64,000 bases of DNA, from assembly GCF_009646095.1 (NCBI RefSeq), contig NZ_CP045725.1:2666001-2730000 (forward strand), in the 5' to 3' direction. Every line of letters begins with the position of its first letter. The stretch's first letter is position 1. Below are positions 4,779-61,160 of this stretch, one piece after another. The DNA comes from Raineyella fluvialis. Lineage in GTDB: Bacteria; Actinomycetota; Actinomycetes; Propionibacteriales; Propionibacteriaceae. The notes beneath the pieces were generated by a model. That model made no database searches. It saw only the letters and a program-made list of their open reading frames with translations, and had not been told where the DNA came from. The translations under genes and the position numbers were made by a program.

Positions 4779-6295
4779 TCAGTCGGTCCCGATGAGCTGC
4801 AGCATTCGGGTACGGTCCGTTGTGTACGTGATCGTTAACTCACCAACAGAAAGCACGTCCCCCTCGAACAGCGTCCCCGTTGCCCGCTCCACTCCAGACG
4901 AGGCGCGCACGGAGACTCCCATCTGCCCGTCGGCCCCCTTGGCAGGAAGCAGACCGATCGATGCCAAGCCGTCGCCAAGATTCAAGGACGACTTGCGGCC
5001 GCTGAGCAAGCGCTCGTCGACCACCGCGCCATTTCGCAGGAGCGAGAGTGTGCCTGTCATGCGCGGGCGGGTTGCCAGCCAGCCTCCCCATGCGCCGCCG
5101 ATCAGCACCATCACGACGACCCCGATGCCGCCCACGCGAACGAGCGGGCTATCCATGACCGCTCCGGCCTCCGCGGTGGCATTGGGGGAGACGGTGAGAC
5201 TCAGGCGGGAAGGCTTGACATCTGCCTTCCATGTAAGTCCCAGATCATTCGTGATCACGTGCTGCCAGGGGCTGCCGACCTTCCCCATGACCTGCAGGGA
5301 GACTATGCCACGAAGCTGTGCGGAAGCGCTCAACTGCACGTCCGCCTTAACGGTTCCACCGGCGGGAATGTCGAGGGATCCTGGGACACCGGTAACTGTG
5401 ACGGCTGGATTGGGCTCCGACGTGATGGCCAGATCCGTCACCTGGACGGGTACAACATTGTTGGCGTTGTGAAGGGTCAGTGTCGCGGAGCCACTGGAGA
5501 GTTCCAGGGGCTGGTCGATAGACACGTTGACCGACTCTGCGAGATGGTCCTGCAATTGGCTGACGGCGGCCGCCTTCATTACATCTGTCGATACCTGTGG
5601 CAGGAAGGTGCCCAGCTCGGACGATGACACGTCCTTGACGTTGGAGAACACCTGCTTGAGAACGGCGGCATCGGTGTTCGATGTCAGCGCGATCGCCAGG
5701 GGGCGATGTCGTGACTGTCCTGCAGCTTGACAGCTCGTTGCTTCAGTGGCCCCCAGCCGGATGAGTTGACCGTTGCATACGGAGACGACGGATTGGTGTC
5801 TATCTGGCCGTCCGTGAAGAGCAGCACTGCGCCCCGCTTCTTGATCTCTCCCCGCTCCATGACATCGAGGGCGGTGGCGAGGGCAGCACCGATGTCCGTG
5901 GCCTGACCTGTGGGGGCGGCTGGCAGCGAGGATATGCTGCCCTGCCTGTCGGATCCCAGAGCGGTGAGCGATCGTCGGACCTGGGGCGTCGAGTCGAAGG
6001 TGATGAGGGCGACTCGATCGTCTGGGCCGAGAGCCTTGACCATGTCCGAGAGTCCAGACCGTACGCGCTGGTAACGACCTTGGTCCGTCATGGACGCGGA
6101 AGTGTCCACGATCACGACGTAGTCGGCGGGCTCCTGTTTCACCGACAGGGCGGTCAACACGTCCTGGAGGGATGACTGCTCGGGCGCCGCCAAAGCTGGA
6201 ATGGGGCCGAAGAGCACCACGGCCACCAGCAGCGGCAGGAGGAGGGCGGCCGTGATCGATCGGGCGATCCGACGTCGCTGTGCCTGACGTCTCAT
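4779..6295 (-). pseudogene. vWA-domain membrane protein, single frameshift
   Basis: Reading from 6295, the N-terminal frame gives a signal peptide (Arg-rich n-region, LLLPLLVAVVLFG core, ALAA cleavage) and a von Willebrand A domain with MIDAS motif DTSAS near residue 65, then FTDGQ. At the G5 run 5699-5703 the frame breaks (KLQDSHDIAP) and continues one frame over as LAIALTSNTDAAVLKQVFSNV. The rest is a beta-rich extracellular region, one transmembrane helix (VGGIGVVVMVLIGGAWGGW) and a small C-terminal beta domain of about 80 residues, possibly FHA-like. One added base restores about 505 codons. The start has AGGGGG 8 nt upstream. Likely a surface-exposed metal-dependent binding protein. Disruption could be a sequencing error (see findings). 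Confidence 0.75.
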
Positions 6296-6840
6296 GCTCC
6301 GTACCCCCTGACAAACCGACGTTGGCGGCAGGCTAGCAGGCCGAGGGGGAGCCGCCTGTCGGCGACGGTCGAATTCTGGGCCGGTTTCAAACCGCTGGTC
6401 CGCCGCGGACATACGCGACCTGTCCGCTCGCGGCGACCTTGGCGCTCCGATGTGAGTCCAGGACAACCTCCAGGTCGATGCTTTCAGATGACTACGAGTA
6501 CGTCATCGGTCCTGCCTCGGACAGGGACACCATCGACCCGGCGGTACTGGACACCGTCACCGGCGCGCCCGCGCACATAGGGCCTCGGCGGACCCAACGG
6601 GTGTGCGCGGTTGATCGCTGCGGTTGCCGCCCACGCCCCGGGTGGGGTCTGGGTAAGGAAACGAACTGGGGGTCTCGCGGCTGGGCTGGCCGACCCATTG
6701 ACCAGGTCCGGTGGGAACGGCCGCAGTCGATCACGGGATAACCACCCTGAGGTATGCAGTCGATCACTGCCCCGACCCGGTTCCTCACGGAAGGCTCGAG
6801 GGGGTTCCAATCGGTTCTCCCCGGTCGAACGACAGAAGCA
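6296..6840. other. Intergenic, no assignable gene
   Basis: 545 bp. A plus-strand frame near 6475-6590 reads protein-like (LSDDYEYVIGPASDRD) but lacks a ribosome binding site and recognisable homology; it may be gene debris in this patch. Confidence 0.3.
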
Positions 6841-6961
6841 GCATCATTCTGCACTTTCGGTTGGGAACATCCATGTCCACCGAAATTCCGTACAGCTCAT
6901 CAACTCTCTCTTTGTGGCCCGCAGCGCGAGGTACGAATTCGCCGCGACCGCGGCCTAAGCG
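6841..6961 (+). pseudogene. 5' half of a decayed paralogue of the secreted protein at 1886
   Basis: This stretch aligns with 1854-1973: GCATCAT upstream, then GGTTGGGAAC-ATCCATGTCC against GGTTGGAAAC-TCCCATGTCC, then through the signal-peptide region to GCGACCGCGGCCTAAGCG against GCGACGGCCGCTTACGCG. Frameshifts and the in-frame TAA show it is dead. The copy is cut exactly by the ISL3 element and resumes after it at 8418. Confidence 0.65.
6954..6961. repeat. ISL3 target-site duplication, left copy
   Basis: CCTAAGCG, identical to 8410-8417. Eight bases is the usual duplication length for the ISL3 family. Confidence 0.9.
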
Positions 6962-8409
6962 GGCTCTTCGCAGTTGAGGGTGTAGGTGCGCACTGAACTG
7001 GGGCCGACTCTGGGACATGGGCGTGAAGAAGGGCCCTGGGTTGGAAGATGGAGGTTCTCTACGCCGTCATCGCCAAGCCCAAGGCCCGTATGTCCCAGCC
7101 TACGTCACCCCTGTCCACTCCTTGCCTGGACGAGTTCTGCCGCCTCGATCGTCTCGGCCTGACGGTGGTCGGCCAGCAGGTCGCTCCCGACCACACCGTT
7201 CTGGTCTGCCACGTCGTCGCGCCCGGTGACGTGTGTCCCGCGTGCGGGCAACGCGGGACTGCCCGCGACATGGTGACCCGCCGACTGGCGCATGTCCCGT
7301 TCGGCTGGTGGCCGACGATCCTGCACGTGCGGGTGCGCCGCTACCGGTGCTCGCAGTGCCGCAAGGTGTGGCGCCAGGACCTGCGGCCGGCCGCCTCGGC
7401 GCGGGCGAAGCTGTCGCGTGACGCGGTGACGTGGGCCTTGCGCGCGTTGGTGATCGATCGGATGTCGGTCGCCCGGATCGCCCAGGCGCTGGGCGTGGCG
7501 TGGAACACCGCGAACAAGGCCGTCCTCGCCGCAGGCCGCCAGCTGTTGATCGCCGACCCTGCCCGTCTGGGCGGGGTGGAGGTGATCGGGGTCGATGAGC
7601 ACGTGTGGCGCCACACCCGCCACGGCGAGCGCTACGTCACGGTGATCATCGACCTGACCCCGATCCGTGACCACACGGGCCCGGCGCGCCTCCTCGACAT
7701 GGTCGAGGGACGTTCGAAGAAGGTGTTCAAGGCCTGGCTCGCCGACCAGACCGCAGCGTTCCGCGCCCGGGTGGAGGTCGTCGCGATGGACGGGTTCACT
7801 GGCTTCAAGACCGCCGCTGTCGAGGAACTGCCCGACGCGGCGGAGGTGATGGACCCCTTCCACGTCGTCGCCCTCGCCGGAGACAAGCTCGACCAGACCA
7901 GACAGCGGATCCAGCAGGCCACCCGCGGGCATCGGGGCCGGTCGGGTGACCCGCTCTACGGCATCCGCCGGGCGTTGCGGACCAGCGCCGGCCTGCTCAC
8001 CGACAGGCAGATTGCCCGGATCGGAGCGGTGTTCGCCGACGACGCCCACGTCGCCGTCGAGGCCACCTGGGGCGTCTACCAGCGGGTGATCGAGGCCTAC
8101 CGACAGCCGTCACGGGCCGACGGCAAGCAGATGATGACAGCGCTGATCGCCTCGATCTCCCACGGGGTCCCGAAGGCGTTGGGTGAGGTGATCACGCTGG
8201 GACGGACACTGAAACGCCGCCGCACCGACATCTTGGCCTACTTCGACCATCCCGGCACCTCGAACGGGCCGACGGAGGCGATCAACGGCCGACTGGAACA
8301 CCTACGCGGCACCGCCCTCGGCTTCCGGAACCTTGTCCACTACCGGCTACGAGCACTGCTCGACACCGGGGGCTTCAGACCCCGACTCCACTCTCTTTTG
8401 TGAAGAGCC
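6962..8409 (+). mobile_element. Complete ISL3-family insertion sequence (1448 bp)
   Basis: Both ends start GGCTCTTC reading inward, the hallmark of ISL3-family terminal repeats. They form an imperfect inverted repeat of about 24 bp (left from 6962, right back from 8409). A perfect 8-bp direct repeat flanks the element. One intact transposase gene fills it, and its stop codon lies in the right terminal repeat. Ends, duplication and gene are all intact, so the insertion is probably recent. Removing the element plus one duplication rejoins a paralogue of the gene at 1886. Confidence 0.93.
7048..8403 (+). CDS. tnp: ISL3-family transposase
   Basis: 451 aa, full length for the family. The N-terminal zinc-binding region has CPACGQRG and YRCSQCRKVW, followed by an HTH (MSVARIAQALGVAWNTANK). 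The DDE catalytic core shows VIGVDEHVW (first Asp), VVAMDGFTG (second Asp) and a C-terminal SNGPTEAINGRLEHLRGTALGFRN block carrying the Glu. The ATG at 7048 is preceded closely by GGAAG; the ATG at 7090 (MSQPTSPL) is an alternative start that fits family N-termini well. No frameshift is seen. Confidence 0.9.
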   Translation: MEVLYAVIAKPKARMSQPTSPLSTPCLDEFCRLDRLGLTVVGQQVAPDHTVLVCHVVAPGDVCPACGQRGTARDMVTRRLAHVPFGWWPTILHVRVRRYRCSQCRKVWRQDLRPAASARAKLSRDAVTWALRALVIDRMSVARIAQALGVAWNTANKAVLAAGRQLLIADPARLGGVEVIGVDEHVWRHTRHGERYVTVIIDLTPIRDHTGPARLLDMVEGRSKKVFKAWLADQTAAFRARVEVVAMDGFTGFKTAAVEELPDAAEVMDPFHVVALAGDKLDQTRQRIQQATRGHRGRSGDPLYGIRRALRTSAGLLTDRQIARIGAVFADDAHVAVEATWGVYQRVIEAYRQPSRADGKQMMTALIASISHGVPKALGEVITLGRTLKRRRTDILAYFDHPGTSNGPTEAINGRLEHLRGTALGFRNLVHYRLRALLDTGGFRPRLHSLL

Positions 8410-8417
8410 CCTAAGCG
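8410..8417. repeat. ISL3 target-site duplication, right copy
   Basis: CCTAAGCG, identical to 6954-6961. Confidence 0.9.
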
Positions 8418-8480
8418 GCCACCCGACGAGGCCAATGGCCGACGGGCACGGTCAGCGGCAACAGTCTCGTCGATCGCCTC
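8418..8480 (+). pseudogene. Continuation of the decayed secreted-protein paralogue after the IS
   Basis: Bases 8447-8472 are identical over 26 nt to 2005-2030 of the intact gene (encoding TVSGNSLV), and the preceding bases (8418-8446) align with 1974-2004. One inserted A at 8473 then breaks the frame. Similarity fades after about 8480. Confidence 0.7.
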
Positions 8481-8937
8481 AGGCTGGTCGTGCAGGCCAA
8501 GACTACGACACGGCTTCGGTGAAAATGAAGTCCGGGGGCTCGGGGTTCCATTGGTGCGTACCACATGCCCGCCAGGACCGCGCGAGCACGACGGTCGTTT
8601 ATCCTGAATGAATACCCGTCTCGGCCTCGGCGATTCACGGCAACGTCGGAAGTCAGGGCCGGCCGCACAGTGCCCAAGAACTCACGCAGCTTGCGCTGCG
8701 AGGTTCCGTCTAACCATCGCATCCACGACCACGCGGGGGCTTGGTATTGACTCGTCAAGCGGCTTTGGCAAGTTCATAAGAATGTGCTTGAGAACTACCG
8801 AACTGTGAGTATCGCATGTCTTCAAGGAGGAACGGTTTGGCAAAGATTGCGCGTCATATTCCCGGATGAAGCTTCCGCAGAATGAGCGGCCAGGTCGAGC
8901 AAGTGAGTAATCGCAAAGAGGGGAGCGGATTCCAGAA
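8481..8937. other. Intergenic, no assignable gene
   Basis: 457 bp of mixed, lower-GC sequence, probably degraded downstream parts of the IS-interrupted paralogue. An AAGGAGG-like site at about 8823 is not followed by a credible reading frame. Confidence 0.35.
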
Positions 8938-9603
8938 TCAGAACAGGCCGGGAACGAATCTCTTCGTCCATGTCATATACTCTGCGTACTCTGGAAGGTG
9001 TGCTGAAATCAGACGCTCCTCCTGAATGGCGCGATACATCTGGAGAGTCACAATCATTATCAGGATCGCCATCTTCTGCCACGACGGCCCCATCAAAACG
9101 GCGCCGATCAAAACGACAGTCTCACCGACGTAGAGGGGATGCCGAATATATCGATACGGGCCCTTCCGTACCAGCGTGCGAACTTGAGGAGCAACGCCGA
9201 AGTTCCTGCGTAAGGCGGCCAGCGAGTAAAGCGTGAAGCCAAGCCCCAGGGCCTGAATGGACACCGCGATCACCGACAGACTTGGCGGAACCGTCATACT
9301 TTCAGCGAATGCAAGCAGGAAGGGGGCGAACGTCCCCGCATAGGCGGCGATCCGTGGCAGGATCTCTGGGCTCGCCGCCTTGGCATCACTTCGCGTGAGC
9401 AGCAATGCCACAAACAACACATAGAAGGCGACTAGCATGCCCCCATATAGCATTGTGAGAACTTTGACGATGCCCCCTGTGTGAAGCGAAGCGCTCCCTT
9501 GAGTCAAGAGGTTACGGGCAGAAATAACAATCATGCCTGAGAAGATCGGGGTTAAGGCGATCCGTTCTAGGTCCATCGATCTCAAGGATTCCCGTAGCGC
9601 CAT
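8938..9603 (-). CDS. Isoprenylcysteine carboxyl methyltransferase (ICMT)-family membrane protein
   Basis: 221 aa with about five hydrophobic segments. The C-terminal half carries the ICMT/phospholipid-methyltransferase signature: GPYRYIRHPLYVGE (RHPxY), then EERLISAHLPEYAEYM, which bind S-adenosylmethionine in this family. The bacterial substrate is not predictable; lipids or small quinone-like molecules are typical. Codon use is visibly less GC-rich than in neighbouring genes, and the gene sits beside IS remnants, so horizontal acquisition is plausible. An internal ATG at 9576 is an alternative start. Confidence 0.75.
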   Translation of the reverse strand: MALRESLRSMDLERIALTPIFSGMIVISARNLLTQGSASLHTGGIVKVLTMLYGGMLVAFYVLFVALLLTRSDAKAASPEILPRIAAYAGTFAPFLLAFAESMTVPPSLSVIAVSIQALGLGFTLYSLAALRRNFGVAPQVRTLVRKGPYRYIRHPLYVGETVVLIGAVLMGPSWQKMAILIMIVTLQMYRAIQEERLISAHLPEYAEYMTWTKRFVPGLF

Positions 9604-9962
9604 TGGGTGACGGCCTTTCTAAGAAGACACACCTTGTTGGAGTGGCGTCCTGCCGAGCTTGTTCAATCACCAATCAGTCGCCCTCGAAAGCTCCCTGCCG
9701 GCATGAGACGAGCGGACCAGTGGCATCCGTAGGAACGCAGACCTTCCGAGGCGGATGGCTACAGGTCGACGAGCGAGACGCTGGCCCGAGCCACACCTCA
9801 TGCCTCATTCTTACGACGCCTTCGTGATGACGGCAGGGTAGCACTCGCGAACCTGTGTGACTGATGATCAAATCTGTGAACGGCGGCTGACAGTCACGGC
9901 AGGGTGAGGTTGAGCACAGCTGTTTGACAGGAGCCCGTTGGGCGCGCAAGAGTGAGTCCGAA
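9604..9962. other. Intergenic region upstream of the pilus operon
   Basis: Separates the minus-strand methyltransferase gene from the Tad operon. It should hold the flp promoter, but I cannot point to a clear -35/-10 pair. Confidence 0.35.
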
Positions 9963-10007
9963 CCCCCATCCGGGGGAGAGCCGCACGGGGGGTCGAGCTC
10001 TCGACCC
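9963..10007 (+). promoter_or_regulatory. Tandem hairpins in the flp 5' leader
   Basis: Two inverted repeats directly precede the flp ribosome binding site: CCCCC/GGGGG (9963-9967 and 9972-9976, 4-nt loop) and GGGTCG/CGACCC (9990-9995 and 10002-10007, 6-nt loop). They could stabilise the abundant pilin mRNA or gate translation. Confidence 0.5.
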
Positions 10008-10028
10008 GGAACCAGAGAGGGTATCTTA

Positions 10029-10238
10029 ATGACGAAGTTCGCCGCATTCATGACCACCACGCTGTTCATGCTCAAGCAACGCCACGAGGACAACGACAAG
10101 GGCGCCACGCTTGTCGAGTACGCTCTGCTGGTCGGGCTGATCGCTCTCGCTGTTATTGTCGGCGTTACGGCCTTCGGTAATCAGGTTAACACCTTCTTTA
10201 ACGGCCTCGCTGCCAAGCTTGGCATCGTCGCCGGCTGA
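10029..10238 (+). CDS. flp: Flp-family type IVb pilin
   Basis: 69 aa, the usual size of Flp prepilins. A short charged leader ends in DKG, followed by ATLVEYALLVGLIALAVIVGV. This is the classical prepilin cleavage site after Gly with Glu at mature position 5, then a hydrophobic polymerisation helix. It is cleaved by the prepilin peptidase at 16998-17639 and assembled by the Tad machinery downstream. The ATG at 10029 has GAGAGGG 7 nt upstream. A strong hairpin follows the gene, consistent with the pilin being made in excess over the assembly proteins. Confidence 0.93.
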   Translation: MTKFAAFMTTTLFMLKQRHEDNDKGATLVEYALLVGLIALAVIVGVTAFGNQVNTFFNGLAAKLGIVAG

Positions 10239-10258
10239 GCCGTCGAGTGCTCGGTCTC

Positions 10259-10289
10259 TAGGAGCGGACGGCGGCGCCGTCCGCTCCTA
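10259..10289 (+). terminator. Hairpin between flp and tadE (partial terminator or 3' stabiliser)
   Basis: Perfect 13-bp inverted repeat (10259-10271 and 10277-10289) with a 5-nt loop, without a U-tract. Its position between pilin and machinery genes suggests differential expression. Confidence 0.65.
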
Positions 10290-10320
10290 CTCACTTGCTG
10301 GCGCGACGGTATGGGGGTTC

Positions 10321-10713
10321 ATGCGTAAGTCAGATCGCGGTGCTGAAGTGGTCGAGTTCGCACTCTTGGCGCCGATCCTGATGGCTTTGATCCTGGGGAC
10401 CATCGAGTTCGGGTTCGCCTTCCTGGCTCAGGCTACGATTGCTGGGGCGGCACGCGAGGCCGCCAGGGACATGGCGATCCACAACAACCCTGATCAGGCC
10501 CGAATGGTAGCAGTGAATGCGGCAGTTCCTGTCGTAGTCTTTGCCAACCCGACTGAGGAGATTGGCATCGCCGCGACCTGTCCTACGGGAGCGGCCGGAC
10601 AAGTCGTGGTGACCATCAACCACCCTTACGTGGGCCTCACCGGTTGGTTGGCGACCGTCGCCCCGACTGGAGTCACACTCGGGGGCAAGGGAGTCATGAG
10701 ATGCGGTGGCTGA
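10321..10713 (+). CDS. tadE: TadE-like minor pseudopilin
   Basis: 130 aa. The N-terminal RGAEVVEFALLAPILMALILGTIEFGF is a TadE pseudopilin segment (conserved Glu after the charged start, then a single transmembrane helix). An extracytoplasmic beta-rich domain follows, with two cysteines (ATCPTG and the C-terminal MRCGG). It should be processed like Flp and act in pilus biogenesis. GGGGG lies just before the ATG. The 3' end overlaps the next gene by 13 bp, so the two are translationally coupled. Confidence 0.85.
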   Translation: MRKSDRGAEVVEFALLAPILMALILGTIEFGFAFLAQATIAGAAREAARDMAIHNNPDQARMVAVNAAVPVVVFANPTEEIGIAATCPTGAAGQVVVTINHPYVGLTGWLATVAPTGVTLGGKGVMRCGG

Positions 10714-11738: not shown

Positions 11739-11756
11739 GAACAAAGAGATCTGAGT

Positions 11757-13669: not shown

Positions 13670-15146
13670 GACTCTCAGATCGGCTCGCAGCAAACCATAG
13701 TTCGTCTGTGGAGGGACGCGCCCCATCCGAATCTGAACCCGTCGTGGCCGCGGATGCCGCCGCTTTCGTGGCACCGGAAGTTCCGATTGCGCTGCCTATC
13801 CCACGAACACCCGCTCGGGGCTTTCTGGACTTTCCCCGATAACCCATCCGCCCCAGCGAGCCATGGGACCGGACCCACTCGCCGCCCTGAAATCAGCTGC
13901 GGCCGACACGCTGTACGAGCGCCTTGGCGCGCGGCTGAGTGACTCGAGTCTGGACGAGCAAACACTCCGGACGCTGGTTCGCAACGAACTGAATACGATC
14001 ATCGAGTCGTCAGGTACACCGTTGACAGTTGTCGAACGTCGCCGGGTAATCGATGAGGTCCAAGCCCAAGTGCTGGGTCTCGGGATCCTGGAGCCGTTCT
14101 TGGCTGACGACACCGTCACCGAAATCATGGTCAATGGCCCCGACAACATCTACATCGAACGGGCGGGGCGACTGGCCCCTGCCGACGTCACATTCGAGAA
14201 CGAATTGGCTCTGCGTCGGGTAATCGACCGGATCGTCTCCAGGGTTGGACGCCACATTGACGAGGCAACTCCTCTGGTCGATGCCCGCCTGGCGGACGGT
14301 TCACGTGTCAACGCAATCGTTCCGCCACTGGCTGTCAGCGGCCCAACTTTGACGATCCGGAAGTTCTCCACAGAGGTGCTGACGGTGCCGGACATGATCG
14401 GGCTGGGTACTCTCATCCCTGAAACGGCTGAACTGTTGGAGGCCTGTGTCCGTGCACGACTCAATATTCTCGTCTCGGGCGGCACTGGTACTGGTAAGAC
14501 GACCATGCTTAATGTCTTGTCGTCGTTCATTCCTAACGACGAGCGGATAATCACAATTGAGGACACTGTCGAACTGCAGCTCCAGCAGCGACACGTGGTA
14601 CGCCTCGAGGCGCGTAACGCCAACACCGAAGGTCGGGGCGCAGTCAGTATCCGGGATCTCGTGCGCAACTCTCTGCGTATGCGGCCCGATAGGATCGTCG
14701 TCGGCGAGGTTCGTGACGCCGAGGCCCTCGACATGCTCCAAGCTATGAACACCGGCCACGACGGTTCACTATCTACCGTGCACTCTAATTCGCCGCGTGA
14801 CACGCTCGCCCGCCTCGAGACCCTGGTGTTGATGGCTGGCATCGAGTTGCCTCTGCGGGCCATCCGCGAGCAGGTGTCTTCGGCGGTCGACCTGATCGTT
14901 CATCTCGGACGGCTGCGTGACGGCACCCGCCGAGTCGTGAACGTGACCGAGGTGCTCGGTATGGAAGGCCAGACGATCACGTTACAGGACATTTTCGAGT
15001 TCGACTACGCTGCAGGCGTGGATCGTGACGGACGATTCCGCGGGCACCTTAAGCCCACCGGCGTACGCCCACGGTTTATGGACCGGTTCGACGAGCTCGG
15101 CATCGCTCTCCCTTCCGCCGTCTTCGGCGGCTACTCACCCCGATAG
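13666..15146 (+). CDS. cpaF: CpaF/TadA secretion ATPase, apparent frameshift in the N-terminal tail
   Basis: The intact frame from ATG 13863 gives 427 aa with all core motifs: VTEIMVNGPDNIYIE, Walker A SGGTGTGKTTMLN, Asp box IITIEDTVELQL, Walker B RMRPDRIVVGEVRDAEALDM, and the His box GSLSTVHSNSPRDTL. It is the hexameric ATPase that powers Flp pilus assembly. However, the ATG at 13863 has only a weak ribosome binding site. The ATGA overlap at 13666 opens a 58-codon frame starting MRLSDRLA, typical of CpaF N-termini, which stops at 13840-13842. Adding one C to the C4 run at 13834-13837 joins the two into one protein of about 493 aa. The intact core alone is 13863-15146. Confidence 0.85.
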
Positions 15147-15151
15147 GCGCC

Positions 15152-26991: not shown

Positions 26992-27672
26992 ATGGGTACG
27001 CGCATCATCGGATGGATCACCGGCCTGATGGACTCCGTGGGGGGCCCGGGGGTCTTCCTGGCGATCCTGCTCGAGAACGTGTTCCCGCCGATCCCCAGCG
27101 AGGTGATCCTTCCACTGGCGGGCTTCACCGCGGCCCGACCCGACGCACCGTACGGAGTGGTCGAGGCCATCCTCTGGGCCACCGCCGGGTCACTCCTCGG
27201 CGCGGTGCTCCTCTACGGACTCGGCGCGGCCATCGGCGCGGATCGGCTGCGCCGGATCGCCGAGCGGATGCCGCTGGTCGACGCCCGAGACGTCGACGCG
27301 TCGATCGACTGGTTCACCCGCTACGGGTCGATCGCCGTGCTGGTCGGGCGGCTCGTCCCCGGCGTACGATCCCTCATCTCGATCCCGGCCGGCATCGACC
27401 GGATGCCACCCCTCACCTTCGGGGCGTTCACCCTGCTCGGCAGCCTGCTCTGGAACTCCGCCCTCGTTGTCGCGGGCTACCTGCTGGGGGACAACTGGCA
27501 CGTCGTAACCGACTGGATGGACCGCTTCTCCACCGTCGCGTACGTGCTCCTGGCACTGGGCCTGATCGGCGTCACCGTCTGGCTGATCCGCCGATCCGTA
27601 CGCCGCAGGTCCGCGCCCGGCGCCGCGCAGAGGCCGCAGGATTCGCCGGAGGAGACCCCCGAGTCCCGCTGA
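26992..27672 (+). CDS. DedA-family membrane protein
   Basis: 226 aa. Motifs are FLAILLENVFPPIPSEVILPLAG, TAGSLLGAVLLYGLG, GSIAVLVGRLVPGVRSLISIPAG (the conserved FxxRxxPxxR/G-like block) and a final helix followed by an Arg-rich tail. DedA/SNARE-associated proteins act in membrane lipid (undecaprenyl phosphate or phospholipid) translocation. It lies 68 bp after the transpeptidase with GGAGG upstream, so the two may be co-transcribed. Confidence 0.87.
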   Translation: MGTRIIGWITGLMDSVGGPGVFLAILLENVFPPIPSEVILPLAGFTAARPDAPYGVVEAILWATAGSLLGAVLLYGLGAAIGADRLRRIAERMPLVDARDVDASIDWFTRYGSIAVLVGRLVPGVRSLISIPAGIDRMPPLTFGAFTLLGSLLWNSALVVAGYLLGDNWHVVTDWMDRFSTVAYVLLALGLIGVTVWLIRRSVRRRSAPGAAQRPQDSPEETPESR

Positions 27673-28370: not shown

Positions 28371-29476
28371 ATGGACCCGCACACCGCAGAAGCCACCGGC
28401 GCGCCCGACCCCGCCGAGACCGTCGTGCTCCGACCCCACGGACTCCAGGGCCTGCTGGCCACCGTTCCCTACCTGCTCGGCTTCCACCCCCGCGAATCGC
28501 TCGTCGCCGTCCTCTTCGAGGACCGCCGGGTGGTGCTGACCCTGCGGCTCGACAGCGACGACCTCGTCGCGCATCCACCCGACGTCGAGGACTTCCTGCT
28601 GACCCAGTTGCGCCGACTCGAGGCCACCGGGGTGCTGCTCGTCGCCTACACCGACGAGGAGGCACAGGACGTGGCCGCGGCCCTGACCGCCGTCTGCCTC
28701 GGCCTGGAGGTGGTCGGCCTCCTCGACCCCGACGGTGCGGAGGTCCTCGATGCCGTCCACGTCGCCGCAGGCCGCTACCGCTCACTCACCTGCGACGACA
28801 CCACCTGTTGCCCGCCGGAGGGGCGCGACTATGCGAACGTCCTCTCCGACGCGGCCGCCGCCGACGCCGTCGTCCACGGGCTGCCGGCCTGGTCCGATCG
28901 CGAGGACCTGCGTCGCAGCGTCCTGCCCTCCGGATCCGGACCCGACGCGAGGAGCGAGGCCTTCGACCAGGCCCTCGTGCGTGCCCTGATGCAGGCCGGC
29001 ACCCTCGGACCCCGCGACGTCGCCGAGGCGATGGACCGACTACTCACCCGGATCGAGACCACGGGCACCGACCCGGATCCGACCACATTGGGACACCTCG
29101 TCGCCCTCGCCGGCCTGTCCGACGCTCGGGACGTGGCGACCCTGCGGATCGAGCGGGAATCGGCAGCACTGTGGTCGCGGGTCTGGTCGGCCGCCGCCCG
29201 GCTCAGCACCGGCCTGGCGGCGGTGGCACCCCTCGGGCTCGTCGGTGTCAGCGCCTGGGCCCGGGGGACGGAGCACTGGTGTGCATCTGCCTCGAGGAGG
29301 CGGAGAAGCTCTGCGGGAAACACGGTCTGGTCGACCTGTTGCGCACCGTCGTGGAGCACGGGATCCACCCCGATGAGTGGCACCGGATGCGGCGCGAGAG
29401 CCTGGAGCGCTACGGTCCTCTCGGCCCGGCGTCGGCCCCTGAGCAGGAGGAAGGGGGAGAACGGGCGGTGGGCTAG
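28371..29476 (+). pseudogene. DUF4192 family protein, single frameshift
   Basis: About 368 aa if repaired. The DUF4192 signature is at the N-terminus: LRPHGLQGLLATVPYLLGFHPRESLVAVLFEDRRVVLTLRLD. The protein continues to VSAWARG, where the G5 run 29263-29267 breaks the frame. Adding one G gives WARGDGALVCICLEEAEKLCGKHGLVDLLRTVVEHGIHPDEW and a stop at 29474-29476, matching the family's C-terminal WxARGDGAL block. Function of DUF4192 is unknown. Immediately upstream of leuS. Confidence 0.8.
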
Positions 29477-32037: not shown

Positions 32038-32741
32038 GTGAGAAAGACCGAGCCGGACGCCGACATGAGCGCCACGGTCGCCATGGGACCCCTGCCCGCG
32101 GCGATCGCGACGCCGCTGTCGAGCGCTCGCGCCGCCGTGCTGGCACAACTGGCCGAAGCGGACGGACAGCCGCTTCGGGCCCAGGAGATCGCCAAGGCGC
32201 TCGGGCAGCATGTCAACACCACGCGTGAGCACCTGGAGGGTCTGGTCGCCGATCACCTGGCCGAGGCGACGACCGAGAAGCCGAGAGGCCGCGGCCGGCC
32301 GGCCACGCTCTACCGGTCGCTGCCCGGGGCCTCCATGTCCCCGATCGGGCGTCAGTACGCAGCCCTGGCCGACGTCTTGGTCGAGCAGGTGCTCGAGTCG
32401 GTCGACAACCCCCAGCAGGCCGCCTTCCGGGCGGGCCAGCGGTGGGGTCGCAAGCTCCTCGACGGCGTGCCGGAGGGGGCTCCCCGCAGGAGGCGGTGGA
32501 TCGACAGCTCGCCGAGGTCGGTTTCGCCCCGGAGCGCACCGCCGAGGGTGAGTGGCACCTGTATCGCTGTCCGCTGCTGGCGGCGGCTCGACGACATCCC
32601 GAGGTTGTCTGCAACGTGCATCGAGGGGTCGTCGCGACCATGCTCGAGGGACTGGGGGAGCCTTCGGACGTGCGGATCTTCCCCTTCAGCGAGCCTGGCG
32701 CCTGCGTGATCACCGCGCGACCCGAGGCGTCATCGGCCTGA
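32038..32741 (+). pseudogene. HTH transcriptional regulator with C-terminal cysteines, single frameshift
   Basis: About 234 aa if repaired. An N-terminal winged HTH (LAEADGQPLRAQEIAKALGQHVNTTREHLEGLVADHL, wing GRGRPATLYR) is followed by a helical middle. At the G5 run 32475-32479 the frame breaks after LLDGVPEG. One added G restores GSPQEAVDRQLAEVGF, WHLYRCPLL, PEVVCNVH and EPGACVI. The three spaced cysteines resemble SufR-like regulators that bind an Fe-S cluster; this is inference. Leaderless GTG start. No target operon is obvious nearby. Confidence 0.75.
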
Positions 32742-35998: not shown

Positions 35999-36070
35999 CG
36001 GGGACGCGGCCAGCGCTCGCGACGCGACCACAGCAGCCCGAGTGTCGGTGGAGGCTGCAATAGTGGGTGG

Positions 36071-37066: not shown

Positions 37067-37708
37067 TCGCTCGGTCGCTCCGGCCAGCGATGCTTTCGCT
37101 ACCCCGCCGGCCGATGACGGCCGCAGCGAGGACGCCGCCGAAGACGCCACCGAGGTGGGCCTGCCAGGAGATGCCCGAACTCGTCGGCAGCACCCCCAGA
37201 TCATGCCGCCGTACACGACGACAAGACCGACGGCGATGAGGATCTGGCGCCAGTCCCGGGTCCACAGGCCCCGGACCACCAGGAAGGCGAACCAGCCGAA
37301 GATCAGACCGCTCGCCCCGGCGACGTACGCTCCGGCAGGCGTGAAGGCCCAGGCGAAGAGCCCGGAGACGACGACGATCAGCAGGGTGCTGATCACCCAC
37401 TGGGCCCGCCCGGAGATGTAGACGAACCACCCCAGGACGAAGAACGGGACGGTGTTGGAGATGAGGTGCTCCCAGCCGAAATGCAGCAGGGGAGCGGTGA
37501 AGATGAACAGCACAGCCTGCGGGTCATGGGCACGGATCGCGAAGTAGTCCAGCAGGTTGCCGCTGAGCTGGTCGACCAGTTCGATCAGCCAGAGCAGTGC
37601 GACCCATCCGACCATGAACCGGGCTGCAGCCCCGGCCGTGACGCTGCGCCGGGCGACGGTCTTCGTCAAGGGACGGGGGACGGGTCGCTGACCGCCGTAC
37701 ATACTCAT
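37044..37708 (-). pseudogene. Rhomboid family intramembrane serine protease, single frameshift
   Basis: About 221 aa if repaired. Helices include LIELVDQLSG, HFGWEHLISNTVPFFVLG, the catalytic serine motif YVAGASGLIFGWF, and FLVVRGLWTRDW. The C5 run 37193-37197 (G5 on the coding strand) breaks the frame after GGMIWG. Adding one G gives VLPTSSGISWQAHLGGVFGGVLAAAVIG, restoring the catalytic His. Without repair the His is lost and the protein would run on as nonsense. I choose the ATG at 37708, with GGAGG just upstream. Confidence 0.83.
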
Positions 37709-37760
37709 GGCCTCCAGTCTGCCAATAAGGGGCAATCGGGGAGAACCCCGAGGACGACGA

Positions 37761-41495: not shown

Positions 41496-41575
41496 CAGCC
41501 GGCCGAACTCACCCGACCGACCCCTGCGGCGGGACCGGCCCGGTCCGTTCGGTGAACGGGGCTGGATCGCGGGGC

Positions 41576-52338: not shown

Positions 52339-52438
52339 GGCCGCAGCCTCCTGTGTCGGGGATCAGTGATGTCTTCGACGGTAGGACGACGGAAGGTCCG
52401 GCGCATTGATCCGGGTCAAGTCCCGCGACCGGGCCTCC

Positions 52439-52888: not shown

Positions 52889-53018
52889 CGAGCCTCTCTC
52901 TCCTCTACGGGGGGCACGCGCGAGCCGTCTGTGATGGACGGTTCGCCCTGTCCGGGTGCTCCGACAGCCGAGCAGCGTAGGCTATCGGGACTCCAGCCCG
53001 CTGGGCCGCAGGGCGGAT

Positions 53019-53024
53019 TAGCAT
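53019..53024 (+). promoter_or_regulatory. tgt: -10 box of tgt
   Basis: TAGCAT overlaps the in-frame ATG at 53023. The transcript would begin near 53031, downstream of that ATG and upstream of the GGAGG-CTG start at 53062. Confidence 0.5.
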
Positions 53025-53042
53025 GAGTGCGCCCAACCATAG

Positions 53043-54329
<1,287 letters not shown>

Positions 54330-54468
54330 CGGAGGATCACCGTACGGCGAGGATCACCGTAGGGCGCCCGATCTCGGCGTTGGACAGCAGGGACCCTGAC
54401 CACCAGGATCGGGACCGAACGGCGCCGATAACGCCGCAGGGCCCCGATCCGGGTGCCCCCCTCAGGGC

Positions 54469-57291
54469 TCAGACCGGGCGGGTGGCCAGGTCGAGCAGCT
54501 CCAGGATGTGGTGGTACGTCTCCCCGGTCGCCCGGGACATCCCCACCTCACAGGTGCGGTTGGCCGAGGCGTAGGCCGTCCGGCCGGTGCCGCCCTGCCC
54601 GGTCCGGGCCGCCACCTCGCCGGCTTCGGCCTTCGTCGCCGAGGCGGTCAGCTCCGGGTGGAGCATGCCACGGTCGCCGGCGAACGCGCAGCAACCCGTC
54701 GCCACCGGCACGATGACCGACGTCGCGATCTTCTCGGCGATGGCGCGAGCAGCGGCATTGAGGCCCAGATGGGTCATCGAGCACGTGTTGTGCAACACCA
54801 CCGTGTCGTACGGCTGGGTGACGACGAGGTCGTCCAGCAGCTGGTCGGCGACGAACTCCACCGCGTCGATGATCGTCAGGTCCCCGTACTTCTGGTCGGG
54901 ATCCTTGTGCTGGAACTTCAGCACCCCCTCGGTGCAGGACGCACCGTCGACGACGACGGGCAGCCGGCCGTGGTCGGTCGCCTCCCAGAGGATCGGCAGG
55001 GCCTTTTCCCGCATGGTCGCGTGACCGCGGGTGAAGCCCTTGGACGACCACGGAGTGCCGCAGCACAGCCCGTTGATCCCCTCCGGAATGTCCACACTGA
55101 CGCCGGTCCGGGTGAGCAGGGCATCGATCGCCGGGCCGACGCCCGGACCGCCCTCCGCCGCGCCGAACAGGTTGTGGATGCAGGCGGGGAACCAGACCGC
55201 GGCAGCGCTGTCGGAGTGCCGCGGTGTGCGACGCCGTCCACCCTTGGGCAGGTCCTTGGTCCAGCGCTGGAGATTGTCGTGGCCGACCACGGCACGACCG
55301 ACGTCGGTGGCCGTTGTGGCCAGCGGCGCGACTGCTGCGGCGACGTTCATCGCGATCCCGCCCACCGCTGTGAGGCCTCCCCAGTTGCGGGCGAGGGCGT
55401 CCCAGGCGGCCTGGCTGGCGTTGCCATGGCCCTCGGCCCGGAGCCGTCGGACCAGGTCTCCGGTGTTGATGTCCAGGGGGCAGTTGACCGAGCAGAGGCC
55501 GTCGACGGCGCACGTCTCGATGCCCTGGTAGCGGTAGGTCTTGCTCAGCTCGTCGGCCAGTCCCGTGTTACCCGCCTGCTGGGCGGCGGTGATCTCCCGG
55601 CGCAGCGCGATCCGCTTGCGTGGCGTGAGGGTGAGGTCGCGGCTGGGGCAGATCGGCTCGCAGTAGCCGCACTCGACGCACCGGTCGACCTCCTCCTCGA
55701 CGGCGGGAGCATCCTTCAGGTCCTGCACGTAGGAGCGGGGGACCTCGGACAGCACGACGCCCGGGTTCAGCACGCCGTCGGGGTCGCACAACTGCTTGAC
55801 CCCGACCATCACCTCGTACAGCTCCTGCCCGTACTGGCGGGCCACGAAGGGCGCCATGATCCGGCCGGTGCCGTGCTCCGCCTTCAGCGAACCCTGGTGT
55901 CCGAGCACGACGTCGACCATGTCATCGGTGAACGCCTCGTAACGCCCGGTGTTCCGGCCGCCCTGGAAGTGCTCGTTGAGCATGAAGTGGATGTTGCCGT
56001 CCTTGGCGTGGCCGAAGATCACCGATTCCTCGTAGCCGTGCTTGACGAACAGCTCGGCGAGCTCGGAGCAGGTCCGCCCGAGCGCGCCCACCGGCACGAC
56101 GACGTCCTCGAGAAGTGCGGTCGTGCCACTCGGGCGGTGACCGGCGATGGCGGCGTAGAGGCCCTTGCGGACCGTCCACAGTTCGGCGGCGCGCTTCGCG
56201 TCCTGGGCCATCCCGAACGGCACGGCCAGCGGGAGCCCGTCGGTCAGCGGTCGGGCGGCGCTGACCATGTCGGCCAGTTCCTCCGGGGTGTGGCCGTGGA
56301 ACTCCACCAGCAGGGCAGAGTGGTCCCGGACGTTCAGTGAGGTGATCGCCTGGGGGCTGCCGGAGAGTCGCTGGGCGACGCGCAGGCTGACGGAGTCCAT
56401 CAGTTCGACGGTGGCGAATCCGGCCGCGACCAGGTCGGGGAGGGCGGTCATCGCCTCGTCGATGGTGCTGAAGACCATCAGGCCGGTGGTGACTGCGGGG
56501 AGCACCTCGATGGTGCGCAGCGTGGCGGACGCGACGAAGCCGAGGGTCCCCTCCGAGCCGATCATCAGGTGCGCGAGGATGTCGGCCGGCAGGTCGTGGT
56601 CGAGCAGCGAGTTGAGCCCGTAGCCCATGGTGTTCTTCATCGAGAACTGCTGGCGGATGGTGTCGACCGAGTCCTGGCGGGACCTGACCCGATCGCGCAG
56701 CTGGCTGAGGCCGGCGTAGAGGGCGGGCTCGAGCTGGCGGAGCTTGTCGTCAGCGTCTGCAGCCCCGGTGTCGAGGACGGTGCCCGAGGGCAGGACCAGG
56801 ACCATCGACTCCAGCGTCCGATAGGTGTTGAACTCGGTGCCGCAGGCCATCCCGGAGGAATTGTTGGCCACCACGCCGCCGATGGTGCAGGCCACCTCGG
56901 ACGCCGGGTCGGGCCCGATCTTGCGACCGTACGGACGCAAGGCCATGTTCACGGCCCGAACCGTGGCCCCCGGCTGGACGCGGACCCGCGCGCCGCCGTC
57001 GAGGACCTCGATGCCCCGGAAGTTGGCCCGGGTGTCGGCCAGGATGCCGCCACCCTGGGCCTGTCCGGAGAGGCTGGTGCCGCCGGAGCGGAAGGTCAGG
57101 GGCAGGCCGCTGCTGCGGGCCGCGCGGAACAATGTGCCGATGTCTGCGGCGGACTGGGGCGTGGCCACGATCTGCGGCACGACAAGGTAATGGGAGGCAT
57201 CGTGTGCCAAGGCGCGCCGGTCGAACTCACTCTCGGAATACATCCCGGCCGTGCCGGGCAGAGTGGGGTGGGCGGCCGTCACCGTCGTCAT
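54469..57291 (-). CDS. FAD- and Fe-S-binding D-lactate/glycolate-type dehydrogenase
   Basis: 940 aa. Residues 1-550 form a GlcD/DLD-type flavoprotein (FRSGGTSLSGQAQGGGILAD, GGVVANNSSGMACGT, GSEGTLGFV; C-terminal HAKDGNIHFMLNEH and EHGTGRIMAPFV). Two [4Fe-4S] sites follow (CVECGYCEPICPSRDLTLTPR, CAVDGLCSVNCPLDINTG). A GlpC/GlcF-like CCG domain comes last (GINGLCCGTPW, CSMTHLGL, CCAFAGDRGMLHPE). This fuses GlcD and GlcF functions and feeds electrons from a 2-hydroxy acid, likely D-lactate, to quinone at the membrane. AGGAG lies 5 nt before the ATG. A double GntR-type operator is just upstream. Confidence 0.88.
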   Translation of the reverse strand: MTTVTAAHPTLPGTAGMYSESEFDRRALAHDASHYLVVPQIVATPQSAADIGTLFRAARSSGLPLTFRSGGTSLSGQAQGGGILADTRANFRGIEVLDGGARVRVQPGATVRAVNMALRPYGRKIGPDPASEVACTIGGVVANNSSGMACGTEFNTYRTLESMVLVLPSGTVLDTGAADADDKLRQLEPALYAGLSQLRDRVRSRQDSVDTIRQQFSMKNTMGYGLNSLLDHDLPADILAHLMIGSEGTLGFVASATLRTIEVLPAVTTGLMVFSTIDEAMTALPDLVAAGFATVELMDSVSLRVAQRLSGSPQAITSLNVRDHSALLVEFHGHTPEELADMVSAARPLTDGLPLAVPFGMAQDAKRAAELWTVRKGLYAAIAGHRPSGTTALLEDVVVPVGALGRTCSELAELFVKHGYEESVIFGHAKDGNIHFMLNEHFQGGRNTGRYEAFTDDMVDVVLGHQGSLKAEHGTGRIMAPFVARQYGQELYEVMVGVKQLCDPDGVLNPGVVLSEVPRSYVQDLKDAPAVEEEVDRCVECGYCEPICPSRDLTLTPRKRIALRREITAAQQAGNTGLADELSKTYRYQGIETCAVDGLCSVNCPLDINTGDLVRRLRAEGHGNASQAAWDALARNWGGLTAVGGIAMNVAAAVAPLATTATDVGRAVVGHDNLQRWTKDLPKGGRRRTPRHSDSAAAVWFPACIHNLFGAAEGGPGVGPAIDALLTRTGVSVDIPEGINGLCCGTPWSSKGFTRGHATMREKALPILWEATDHGRLPVVVDGASCTEGVLKFQHKDPDQKYGDLTIIDAVEFVADQLLDDLVVTQPYDTVVLHNTCSMTHLGLNAAARAIAEKIATSVIVPVATGCCAFAGDRGMLHPELTASATKAEAGEVAARTGQGGTGRTAYASANRTCEVGMSRATGETYHHILELLDLATRPV

Positions 57292-57331
57292 GGGGACTCC
57301 TGGTCATCGTTGACTGAGATGACGTGAGCGT

Positions 57332-57377
57332 ACCTCAATGGTCTGACCATCGGAAGGGATGGTCAGACCATTGAGGT
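57332..57377. promoter_or_regulatory. Double GntR/LldR-type operator
   Basis: A perfect 19-bp inverted repeat (57332-57350 and 57359-57377). Within each arm lies an 11-bp palindrome, TGGTCTGACCA (57339-57349) and TGGTCAGACCA (57360-57370), matching the TGGTnnnACCA core of FadR-subfamily regulators such as LldR. Their centres are 21 bp apart, two helical turns. It sits 41 bp above the dehydrogenase start and spans the end of cysA, and it could also serve as a terminator for cysA. Confidence 0.7.
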
Positions 57378-58421
57378 GATGCTGGTCATCGGCTCAGCCG
57401 AGTGCCGGGACCGTCGCGTGGGCTGCGGATGCGCGACGGGCCGTGGCTGGCGGTGCCAGGGGGCCAGGACTGCACCCGGGATCGGATGGATCCAAACTCG
57501 GTGGACGGAGTTCAGTCCCTTCTCGACGGCCTCGCGCCGGGTGAGCGTGACCAGCGTGGGTGCCTCGTCCTGGTCCACCTCGACCTCGACCTGCACGTCG
57601 AAGCCGACCCGATTGATTCGCTTCACCCAGCCGCCCTGCTCGCCTGGGCGGTTGGTCGGGTGCACGCTCAAGCCGATGTCATGTGGGCGGATCAGCCTGC
57701 CTCCCAGCATCGTCACCGGTCCGAGGAATCCCATCACGAAGGCGTTGGCCGGCTCGTCGTAGAGCTCGTCGGGGCTGCCGATCTGTTCGATCCGGCCCTG
57801 GTTGACCACGACCAGGCGATGTGCCACGTCGAGGGCCTCCTCCTGGTCATGGGTGACGAAGACCGTGGTGACGTGCACCTCGTCATGCAGCCTGCGCAGC
57901 CACTCCCGCAGTTCCCGGCGGACCTTCGCGTCGAGGGCGCCGAAGGGTTCGTCGAGCAGAAGGACCCGGGGCCGGATGGCGAGAGCACGGGCCAGGGCCA
58001 TGCGCTGGCGCTGGCCGCCGGACAGTTGGGCCGGCAGCCGGTCGGCGAACTGCTGAAGATGGACGAGTTCGAGCATCTCCTCGACCCGGGCGGCGATGGC
58101 CTGCTTCGACTGTCTGCGGATGGTGAGACCGAAGGCGATGTTCTGCGCGACCGTGAGGTGGCGGAACGCGGCGTAGTGCTGGAAGACGAAGCCGACGTCG
58201 CGCTTGCGGGCGGGGATCCCCGTCGCGTCGGTCCCGGCGATGGCGACGGTGCCGGTGTCGGCGGTCTCCAGCCCGGCGATGATCCGCAGCAGGGTGGACT
58301 TCCCCCCGCCGCTGGGACCGAGCAGGGCTGTCAGGTCGCCGGTGGGGATGGTCAGGTCGATGTCGGCCAGGGCGCGGAAGTCGCCGAAGTTCTTCGAGAC
58401 GCCGCGGATCTCGATGCTCAT
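57363..58421 (-). CDS. cysA: Sulfate/thiosulfate ABC transporter ATP-binding protein CysA
   Basis: 352 aa. Walker [20 protein letters not shown]-loop [13 protein letters not shown], signature [15 protein letters not shown], Walker [15 protein letters not shown]-loop [13 protein letters not shown], then a C-terminal TOBE-like regulatory region (RPHDIGLS). FQHYA and ALFRHxTV-type residues are typical of CysA. Starts in an ATGA overlap with cysW. Last gene of sbp-cysT-cysW-cysA. Confidence 0.93.
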
Positions 58422-59251
58422 GCTCGCTTCTCCTCGGACGGGCGCAGCACCGTCACTACGACGAGCGCCACCAGGGCGGTCACGGTGAGGAGCAGTGCGG
58501 CGGTGTAGGCGGTGGTGGTGTGGGCGGCGCCGAACTGCTGGTAGCGCTCCTCGACCAAGAGGGTGGCCGTCTGCGTACGGAACGCGACACCGCCGGAGAC
58601 GATCTTGACGGCGCCGAACTCGCCCAGGGCGCGGGCGAAACTCAGTACGACCCCGTAGACGACGGCCCACCTGATGGTAGGCAGGGTGATGCGGCCGAAG
58701 ACCTGCCAGCGGTTCGCCCCGAGAGTCTGGGCCGCCTGCTCGGCCTCCGTGCCCGCCTCGAGGAGGACCGGCACCACCTCGCGGATGACCAGCGGCAGGC
58801 AGACGAACGTGGTGGCCAGGACGATGCCGGGCGGGGCGTAGATCACCTGGAGGCCGGCAGCGCGCAGCGCCGGCCCGAACCAGCCGCTGGTCCCGCCGTA
58901 GACCAGCAGGAGGGCCAGGCCGACCACGACGGGGGACACCGACATCGGCAGGTCGACCAGCGCCGACAGCACCCGGCGTCCGGGGAACCTGTGCCGGACC
59001 AGCAGGAGGGAGATGCCGACCCCGAAGACGGTGTTCAGCGCGACGGCCCACACCGCAGTGACGAGGGTGAGTTGGAAGGCGAACACCAGCGCCGGGTCGC
59101 GGAGCGCGGCGACCACCGGACCGATCCCGCCGGAGAAGGTCTGCCGGGCGACGAGCGCGACGGGCCAGATGACCAGGAACGTCAGGTAGAGGACGACGAC
59201 GGCCCGCAGCAGGTAGCGGGCCCAAGGCAGTCCCGGTGTCCTAGTCGACAT
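58418..59251 (-). CDS. cysW: Sulfate ABC transporter permease CysW
   Basis: 277 aa, six helices. The EAA loop is [51 protein letters not shown], characteristic of sulfate permeases (GEFGAV). The ATG at 59251 lies 11 bp inside the end of cysT. Pairs with CysT to form the channel. Confidence 0.92.
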
Positions 59252-60103
59252 GGCGGGTGACCTTTCCGGAGAAGACGTCGAGGAGCACGATGGCCACCAG
59301 CGCGACGAGCAGGAGGACGGAGGCCACCGCCGCCGCGCTGTGCAGGTTGTCACCCTCGACGTAGCCGAGGATGCGGACCGCGGCGACCTCGGTGTGCATC
59401 GGAAGGTTGCCCGACAGGAGCACCAAGGAGCCGAACTCGGACAGGCCACGCGCGAAGGACATCGCCGCACCGGAGGCGATGGCGGGCACGAGGCTCGGCA
59501 GGACGATCCGTCGGAAGACGGTCAGCGGCCCCGCACCGAGAGAGGCGGCCGCCTCCTCGGCTTCCGGCTCGAGTTCCAGCAGGACCGGCTGCACCGTACG
59601 GACCACGAAGGGGAGCGTGACGAAGAGGAAGGCCAGCGCGACGGCCATCCTGGTGTTCGCCCAGTTCACCCCGAGGGGTGAGCGTGGGCCGTAGAGGCTG
59701 AGCAGCACCAGTCCGGCCACGATGGTGGGCAGGGCGAACGGCAGGTCGATGACGACCTCGAGGATGCGCTTGCCCGGGAAGGCGTCGCGGACGAGCACCC
59801 AGGCGATGAGGGTGCCGATCACCACGTCGACGGCGGTCACCACGAGGGAGATCCCGACGGTGAGGCGGATCGCGGCAGCGGTCTGGGGATCGGTGAGGGC
59901 GACCCAGTAGGCGTGCCGGCCCCCTCCGAGGCCTTCACGAGCACCGCGATCAGGGGGAGCAGCACGAGCAGGCCGAACCAGATCATGGCCAGTCCGAGTC
60001 CGGTGCCGGACACCCGGTCCAGGGTGCTGGACCACGGGGGCGCACTCCGGGCCCGGCGCCCATGGGTGGCGTCGGGCCGGCGGGTGGAGAGGACCTGCGT
60101 CAT
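59241..60103 (-). pseudogene. cysT: Sulfate ABC transporter permease CysT, single frameshift
   Basis: About 287 aa if repaired. The N-terminal frame (ATG 60103) gives the first helix, GLAMIWFGLLVLLPLIAVLVKASEG, then breaks at the C5 run 59920-59924 (G5 on the coding strand). Adding one G yields GRHAYWVALTDPQTAAAIRLTVGIS and an intact rest: EEAAASLGAGPLTVFRRIVLPSLVPAIASGAAMSFARGLSEFGSLVLLSG. Because sbp, cysW and cysA surround it with ATGA-type overlaps, a working gene is expected. Confidence 0.88.
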
Positions 60104-61160
60104 CGGGTCTTCCCCGTCGCCTGCTGGATGCGCGGCACCAAGCCGGTGGACTCGGCGAAGAACTTCTTGTTCACCGCCGACCAGCCCCCCAGGTCATCGT
60201 TGACGGTGAACAGCCGGGCGGGCCGGGGGAACGGATTCCTCGGGTCGTTCGCTCCCTTCACCTCCGGGATGGTCACCCCGGATATGACGGGTCGGAAGCC
60301 CTTCGCGGCGAACTCGACCTGGCCCTCGGGGCCAGGACGAAGTCGAGGTAGGCCTTCGCCTTGGGGTCGGCGTTCTTGGTCACAGCGCCGGGGTTCTCGA
60401 TCAGCACCGTGCTGGCGGGCACGATGTAGTCGAAGTCCTCGCCGGACTGGCGGGCCAGGATCGCCTCGTTCTCGTACGAGATGAGCACGTCGGCTGTGCC
60501 CTGCAGGAAGGCGTTGGTGGCATCGCGCCCGCTGCCGGGCAGCGCCACGACGTTCCTGAAGAACGACGTGAGGTAGTCCTCGGCCTGGGCGTCCGTGCCG
60601 CCCTGGCTCACCACCTGCTGGTAGGCGGCGATGATGTTCCAACGGGCCGAGCCGGAACTGGCGGGGTTGGGCGTGACGATCCGGATGCCCGGCCTGATGA
60701 GGTCGGACCAGTCATGGATGTTCTTGGGGTTGCCCTTGGGGACCACGAGGACGACCACCGAGTCGGAGACGATGCCCTTGGTCGGGCCGTTCTTCCAGCT
60801 CGGGTCGACGAGGCCCGCGTCGACAAGGCGGGTGACGTCGCCCTCGAGGGAGAAGTTGACGTAGTCGGCCGCCAGTCCGTTGACCACCGCGCGGCTCTGG
60901 TCACCGGAGGCACCGTACGACTCCTGCCAGACGACCCCGCGTCCGGCGTCCGTCGCGGCGAACTTGGCCTGGATGGCGTTGTTCGCCTCCTTGGGGACGG
61001 CGTACCCGACCAGGTGCAGCGTGGTCGCCGGCGCGGTGGAAGCGTGGCCGTCGGCACCGGCCGTAGTTGCTGCGCCGCCGACGCAGCCCGACAGGGTCAG
61101 ACCGGCAGCGGCGATGCCGCCGAGAGACAGCAGCGTGCGGCGGGAGAACGTGGGCGTCAT
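60100..61160 (-). pseudogene. sbp: Sulfate-binding lipoprotein, single frameshift
   Basis: About 353 aa if repaired. The signal has a Tat-like SRRTLLSLGG and lipobox LSGC, so a Tat-exported lipoprotein is likely. Binding-protein motifs are GYAVPKEANNAIQAKF, QESYGASGDQSRAV, VSDSVVVLVVPKGNPK, TPNPASSGSARWNIIAAY, and VLISYENEAI. The G4 run 60328-60331 (C4 on the coding strand) breaks the frame after AYLDFVLAP. One added C restores EGQVEFAAKGFRPV and PARLFTVNDDLGGW to the stop at 60100, which overlaps the cysT start. AAGGGA lies 7 nt before the ATG. Confidence 0.88.

Follow-up and report, generated by a model that had tools for sequence, protein, structure and literature searches.

Are the genes that appear broken in this part of the Raineyella fluvialis genome really lost, or are they split on paper only? 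The window analysed here (bases 2,666,001-2,730,000 of the R. fluvialis contig, 64 kb in length) contains eight genes whose reading frame is interrupted at a short run of G or C bases. From the sequence comparisons described below, we consider it highly probable, at roughly 95%, that all eight breaks arose from errors in the consensus of a long-read assembly, in which homopolymers were under-called. Most likely, this is an ordinary long-read error that is found across the genome, and the genes are not really lost.

Frame breaks in the 64-kb window

The initial annotation of this DNA had placed eight breaks at G/C runs and proposed that each run is one base short. A frame check in the window agrees with this in all eight cases: every run was found with the position and length given to it, and the offset between the upstream and downstream frames is that of one base too few at the run. 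The breaks are located as follows:

5699..5703, minus strand: vWA-domain gene, run of five G (G5), frame 1 to frame 2 (pieces searched: 6466-5684 and 5690-4779)
13834..13837, plus strand: cpaF-like ATPase gene, N-terminal region, C4 run, frame 1 to frame 0
29263..29267, plus strand: DUF4192 gene, G5 run, frame 0 to frame 2
32475..32479, plus strand: helix-turn-helix regulator gene, G5 run, frame 1 to frame 0
37193..37197, minus strand: rhomboid gene, C5 run, frame 1 to frame 2
53189..53192, plus strand: tgt, C4 run, frame 1 to frame 0
59920..59924, minus strand: cysT-like permease gene, C5 run, frame 1 to frame 2
60328..60331, minus strand: sbp-like solute-binding protein gene, G4 run, frame 2 to frame 0

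The gene names of the initial annotation are borne out by the Pfam families detected in the pieces. The upstream pieces of the vWA, rhomboid and sbp-like genes matched VWA_2 (PF13519, 3.7e-18), Rhomboid (PF01694, 5.1e-16) and SBP_bac_11 (PF13531, 3.2e-32), respectively, and the upstream frame of the DUF4192 gene matched DUF4192 (PF13830, 1.2e-33). Downstream of the break, T2SSE (PF00437, 4.3e-66) was found for the cpaF-like gene, TGT (PF01702, 1.6e-114) for tgt and BPD_transp_1 (PF00528, 1.9e-16) for the cysT-like gene. The match of the helix-turn-helix regulator to HTH_20 (PF12840, 4.8e-5) is under the Pfam curated cut-off.

A comparison with close relatives had been named as a check, and its outcome favours intact genes. 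The two halves of each gene were searched separately against stretches of three genus mates, referred to as G001, G002 and G003, giving 24 comparisons (8 genes x 3 relatives). Both halves were located in 19 of these, and in all 19 they lie in the same frame with no stop codon between them. The halves of the DUF4192, helix-turn-helix regulator, rhomboid and tgt genes share one frame in each of the genus mates, those of the vWA gene in G002 and G003, and those of the cysT-like and sbp-like genes in G001 and G003. No pair was obtained in five comparisons, two with G001 (vWA, cpaF) and three with G002 (cpaF, cysT, sbp). All eight genes are thus in one frame in G003, and every gene has at least one relative of this kind. 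The cpaF-like gene, with support from G003 as its single relative and an upstream identity of 41%, is the weakest of the eight cases. Its best database relatives are Propionibacteriaceae records, closely followed by those of other actinobacteria.

When the genes of the relatives were compared with the window by tblastn, one insertion-type switch was obtained, near 37713, which covers a stretch of 15 residues where the rhomboid gene begins, together with two deletion-type candidates that are not among the eight, near 36030 and 41540. The candidate at 41540 reflects out-of-frame matching upstream of a start, as seen in the sequence, and those at 36030 and 37713 were judged spurious from the tblastn coordinates and identities alone. 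As far as this search reaches, the claim that no gene needs a base removed holds as well; the same search missed the break in the helix-turn-helix regulator. An extra candidate deletion-type event, near window:24265 on the minus strand and outside the listed eight, is marked by the hidden Markov model used for the census below.

Single-base gaps and frame changes relative to the genus mates

Isolated one-base gaps were counted in pairwise DNA alignments. The R. fluvialis sequence was the shorter one in 12 cases and the longer one in 3 when aligned with G001, and these numbers were 15 and 0 for G002 and 10 and 5 for G003; among the relatives themselves, the corresponding ratios were 2:2, 3:6 and 0:3. 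A three-way DNA comparison gave a result in the same direction, with 14 gaps unique to R. fluvialis versus 5 unique extra bases. Twelve of these 14 gaps are single-base gaps in every relative compared, the others being a 4-base gap and a gap that is 5 bases long in one relative. This three-way test is noisier than a comparison at the protein level: 20 cases were mixed, fewer than two relatives were available in 65, and many of the gaps are noncoding.

For the protein test, the G002 genes were compared with a 264-kb stretch of the R. fluvialis genome, on which 146 had any accepted match and 143 a well-covered counterpart. A frame change was detected in 20 of the 143 genes, with 23 switches in total, all of which are of the deletion type. 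In the reverse test, 4 of 137 R. fluvialis frames change frame on G002, and in each of them G002 is one base longer. Inspection by eye placed two of the 23 switches ahead of the true gene start; of the remaining 21, about 19 coincide with an observed run of 4-5 G/C bases (one of them ambiguous) and two with a run of 3.

Genome-wide census of frameshifts

The R. fluvialis genome is a single contig of 3,649,865 bases (3.65 Mb) with a G+C content of 69%, a completeness of 100 and a contamination of 2.32. We sampled 784 kb of it in 37 stretches (20 spaced stretches, 16 further stretches and the window) and, as a control, 1.22 Mb (1,220 kb) from the three genus mates; 15 additional stretches were left out of the decoding. 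The samples were decoded with a codon-periodic hidden Markov model, which was trained on pooled long reading frames and allows frame shifts at a fixed cost. With a loose setting, 134 deletion-type and 44 insertion-type events were obtained for R. fluvialis and 38-47 and 20-32, respectively, for each relative. Stricter settings were used for counting because many of the events under the loose setting lie at gene overlaps. Under the counting setting, 98 deletion-type and 14 insertion-type events were found in the 784 kb of R. fluvialis, versus 15 and 12 in the 1,220 kb of the genus mates, and at least one deletion-type event is present in 30 of the 37 own stretches. The sensitivity of the model is low, as it marked four of the eight known breaks of the window and one unconfirmed event.

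The eight breaks in 64 kb correspond to 12.5 per 100 kb, and the 98 events in 784 kb likewise to 12.5 per 100 kb. The window is not special in this respect, and the fault is spread over the genome rather than being specific to the eight genes. By extrapolation, the whole genome would contain several hundred such breaks.

Breaks in essential genes

Of the 20 broken genes from the protein test, 16 were scanned against NCBIfam in the form of their intact G002 relatives, leaving out the four that span locus borders, and ten of the 16 were also scanned against Pfam. NCBIfam matches were obtained for 11 of the 16 genes and none for the other five. The matches include release factors 1 and 2 (prfA and prfB), SecA, the multifunctional 2-oxoglutarate dehydrogenase (kgd/sucA) and homoserine dehydrogenase, as well as RecC below its cut-off. 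The break in prfA lies near residue 209 of 445 and that in secA near residue 500 of 972. No second intact copy of either gene was found in whole-genome searches: the SecA search gave only pieces of the broken gene, and the search with release factor 1 gave the prfA pieces, the related prfB and, elsewhere in the genome, one weak match of 100 residues. Release factor 1 and SecA are both required for bacterial viability. As both genes are broken in the middle and no other intact copy was found, these breaks should be lethal if they were real.

These genes bear directly on the possibility that the frameshifts are real and recent, as in a mutator or decaying lineage, so that the runs would truly be contracted and the genes would no longer function. 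Cellular slippage, too, is known to occur preferentially at homopolymers and to increase with run length, and the breaks do look recent, with both sides being highly identical to a relative (90% and 83% on the two sides of the secA break). However, a viable lineage needs its essential genes unbroken, and the mutator reading would have to account for a cell that lives with neither prfA nor secA intact, in addition to a prfB gene that is broken near its start. The preponderance of deletion-type over insertion-type events (98 versus 14) argues in the same direction, and the lack of substitutions in eight comparisons of insertion-sequence copies (8.5 kb), described below, may do so as well. We consider a mutator lineage, as well as the recoding discussed in the next section, very unlikely.

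The prfB break differs from those in prfA and secA in its position, near residue 69 of 397, and a shortened product might still be made from a later start. It is of the deletion type and located at a C4 run. Where release factor 2 is made by a programmed +1 frameshift, its gene has one additional base and a stop codon in frame at the position of the shift. As the prfB break is of the opposite sense and no stop of the upstream frame is present at the break, it is not the programmed site. The +1 shift of release factor 2 is among the cases named in a passage of PMC5009743.

Dependence on run length and sequence context

A run of at least four bases is present within 15 bases of 73 of the 98 own deletion events, versus 23% of random coding positions. 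To relate events to run length, we took, for each k, the deletion events assigned to observed runs of k bases and divided their number by the sum of these events and the observed coding runs of length k+1. The resulting ratios for k = 2, 3, 4, 5 and 6 are 0.04, 0.4, 3.2, 14.7 and 28.6%, where the last value is based on two events and the values for small k are rough because each event was assigned to the longest run of G or C found up to 15 bases away. Segregating slippage variants in a mixed culture, of which the consensus took the short allele at some runs, would presumably yield the same dependence on run length. The preference for the short allele (98 versus 14) would be left unexplained by such a mixture, which we regard as having next to no likelihood.

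At the event runs, no strict flanking motif was found of the kind that a miscalled modified base might give. The base following the run on the G strand is C at 42 of 69 event runs (61%), compared with 42% of 5,926 coding runs (stretch L098 at the contig start excluded). This bias at the 4-5 base G/C event runs is possibly a context effect of the basecaller.

The same bias could mean a preference for certain sites if the runs were truly short and slippage of the transcription or translation machinery on G/C runs restored hundreds of frames, those of prfA and secA included. A precedent is described in parts of PMC5009743, namely the rescue of frames by poly(A) slippage in endosymbionts, which resemble R. 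fluvialis in having frame breaks at homopolymers. In the accounts given there, these endosymbionts have small, AT-rich genomes with long poly(A) runs, whereas R. fluvialis has a large genome (3.65 Mb, 69% G+C) and the runs at its breaks consist of only 3-5 G or C bases. Moreover, the 98 events compare with more than 6,000 coding runs of 4-7 bases, the same frames are open in the genus mates without any slippage, and one copy of the 23S ribosomal RNA (rRNA), where recoding of a frame cannot matter, is affected as well. We regard recoding as extremely improbable.

rRNA and repeat copies

One of the three 23S rRNA copies of R. fluvialis has a C5 run, where its other two copies and six copies from G001 and G003 have C6. 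Compared with one of its sisters, to which it is otherwise 99.9% alike, the odd rRNA copy also differs in the length of a C run at two places outside the 23S gene. The rRNA operon copy L236 of G001 differs from its sisters L234 and L235 by several gaps of one to three bases, and the G001 assembly may thus not be error-free either.

Copies of insertion sequences (IS) were compared in eight pairs, covering 8.5 kb, and showed no substitution and one single-base gap (a T in CCTG), which is located outside any run of at least 3. A 2,380-base repeat pair showed two substitutions and no gap. As a gauge of the error, the IS copies are too clean to help.

Homopolymer under-calling as the probable explanation

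In accordance with the cause preferred in the initial annotation, we propose that the breaks stem from under-called homopolymers. The consensus of a long-read assembly sometimes counts a run of identical G or C one base short; within a coding region this shifts the frame, and the gene is split in the annotation without being broken in the cell. Such errors would act genome-wide and more often at longer runs, and the genes of the organism itself would be intact. We infer that reads of the organism would show longer runs and that the platform was probably an insufficiently polished long-read one. Several marks of such an artefact were found: the breaks lie at G/C runs and are spread over the genome, deletions are in excess relative to the control, the ratio of events depends on run length, genes are hit irrespective of their function, single-copy essential ones included, the frames are open in the relatives and, as a weaker sign, one 23S copy is affected. 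Under-calling accounts for all of these observations at once.

Comparable assemblies have been described. According to a passage of PMC8306402, an unpolished nanopore draft had homopolymer indels in 664 of 2116 aligned genes and in 16S sequence as well; in another long-read assembly, covered in part of PMC12007338, most indels were false deletions, and runs of four to five bases were the ones that most frequently preceded them. As far as these passages go, the R. fluvialis assembly resembles both in that the errors are chiefly deletions of one base in homopolymers, many of which are about 4-5 bases long, and in that hundreds of genes are split on paper and rRNA genes are touched. It differs from the PMC12007338 genome (59% G+C), in which A/T runs are the commonest sites, in that nearly all of its breaks are at G/C runs, in line with its 69% G+C and small number of A/T runs. 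Curators at the National Center for Biotechnology Information are cited in a passage of PMC10228379 as taking "many frameshifted proteins" for an indication that sequencing or assembly was problematic. The R. fluvialis assembly is similar to those flagged in this way, in that a problem of this kind probably shows as frameshifted proteins.

Several observations weigh against under-calling. Most G/C runs of 5-6 bases are intact, and a deficit of long G/C runs was looked for and not found: runs of 5 occur 202 times per 100 kb in R. fluvialis versus 175-212 in the relatives, and runs of 6 occur 31.7 versus 18.0-33.2 times. As these densities lie within the range of the relatives, most runs are right, and the fault is, as the initial annotation had already stated, not universal, with a ratio of events to runs of about 3% for apparent runs of 5 and about 15% for apparent runs of 6. 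The rate of insertion-type events in the model is also somewhat higher in R. fluvialis (1.8 per 100 kb) than in the relatives (1.0). The upstream pieces of the broken genes are less conserved, with a median identity to G002 of 67% compared with 78% for both the intact genes and the downstream pieces, which we take as a putative effect of the start of the gene. The 23S copy is supportive only and weak alone, rather than a unique mark, because the rRNA copies of G001 differ as well and only one such site was found. Finally, the recently copied repeats, that is, the IS copies and the 2,380-base pair, lend little support.

In the region compared with G002, about one gene in seven (20 of 143) is split on paper. 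Gene counts, pseudogene counts and statements on missing functions that are made from this assembly are therefore unreliable, despite a completeness of 100. Breaks in single-copy essential genes, together with the genus mates, can separate an assembly error from real decay without access to the reads.

The contig start and a transposase-bearing repeat

The breaks are densest at the start of the contig, where 14 deletion-type events are found in the first 20 kb, 12 of them inside positions 1497-9731. In this part of the contig (L098:1497-9731, G000:C1:1497-9731), an Orf5-like gene is present together with fragments of a DISARM-like defence locus (DrmA, DrmB and DrmC). Low read depth at the contig end or real decay could be responsible for the high density at this site. 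No overlap between the contig ends, in which one piece of DNA would appear twice, was detected when the first 80 kb were compared with the last 60 kb (no match of at least 300 bases).

A transposase-bearing repeat is located at window:7048-8403. It has five near-full copies, the others being near positions 27066, 401619, 405851 and 1736841 of G000:C1. Two more copies, at approximately 362-365 kb and 1724-1727 kb, are split at the same place by inserts of about 2.4 kb, which are 99.9% alike and in opposite orientation.

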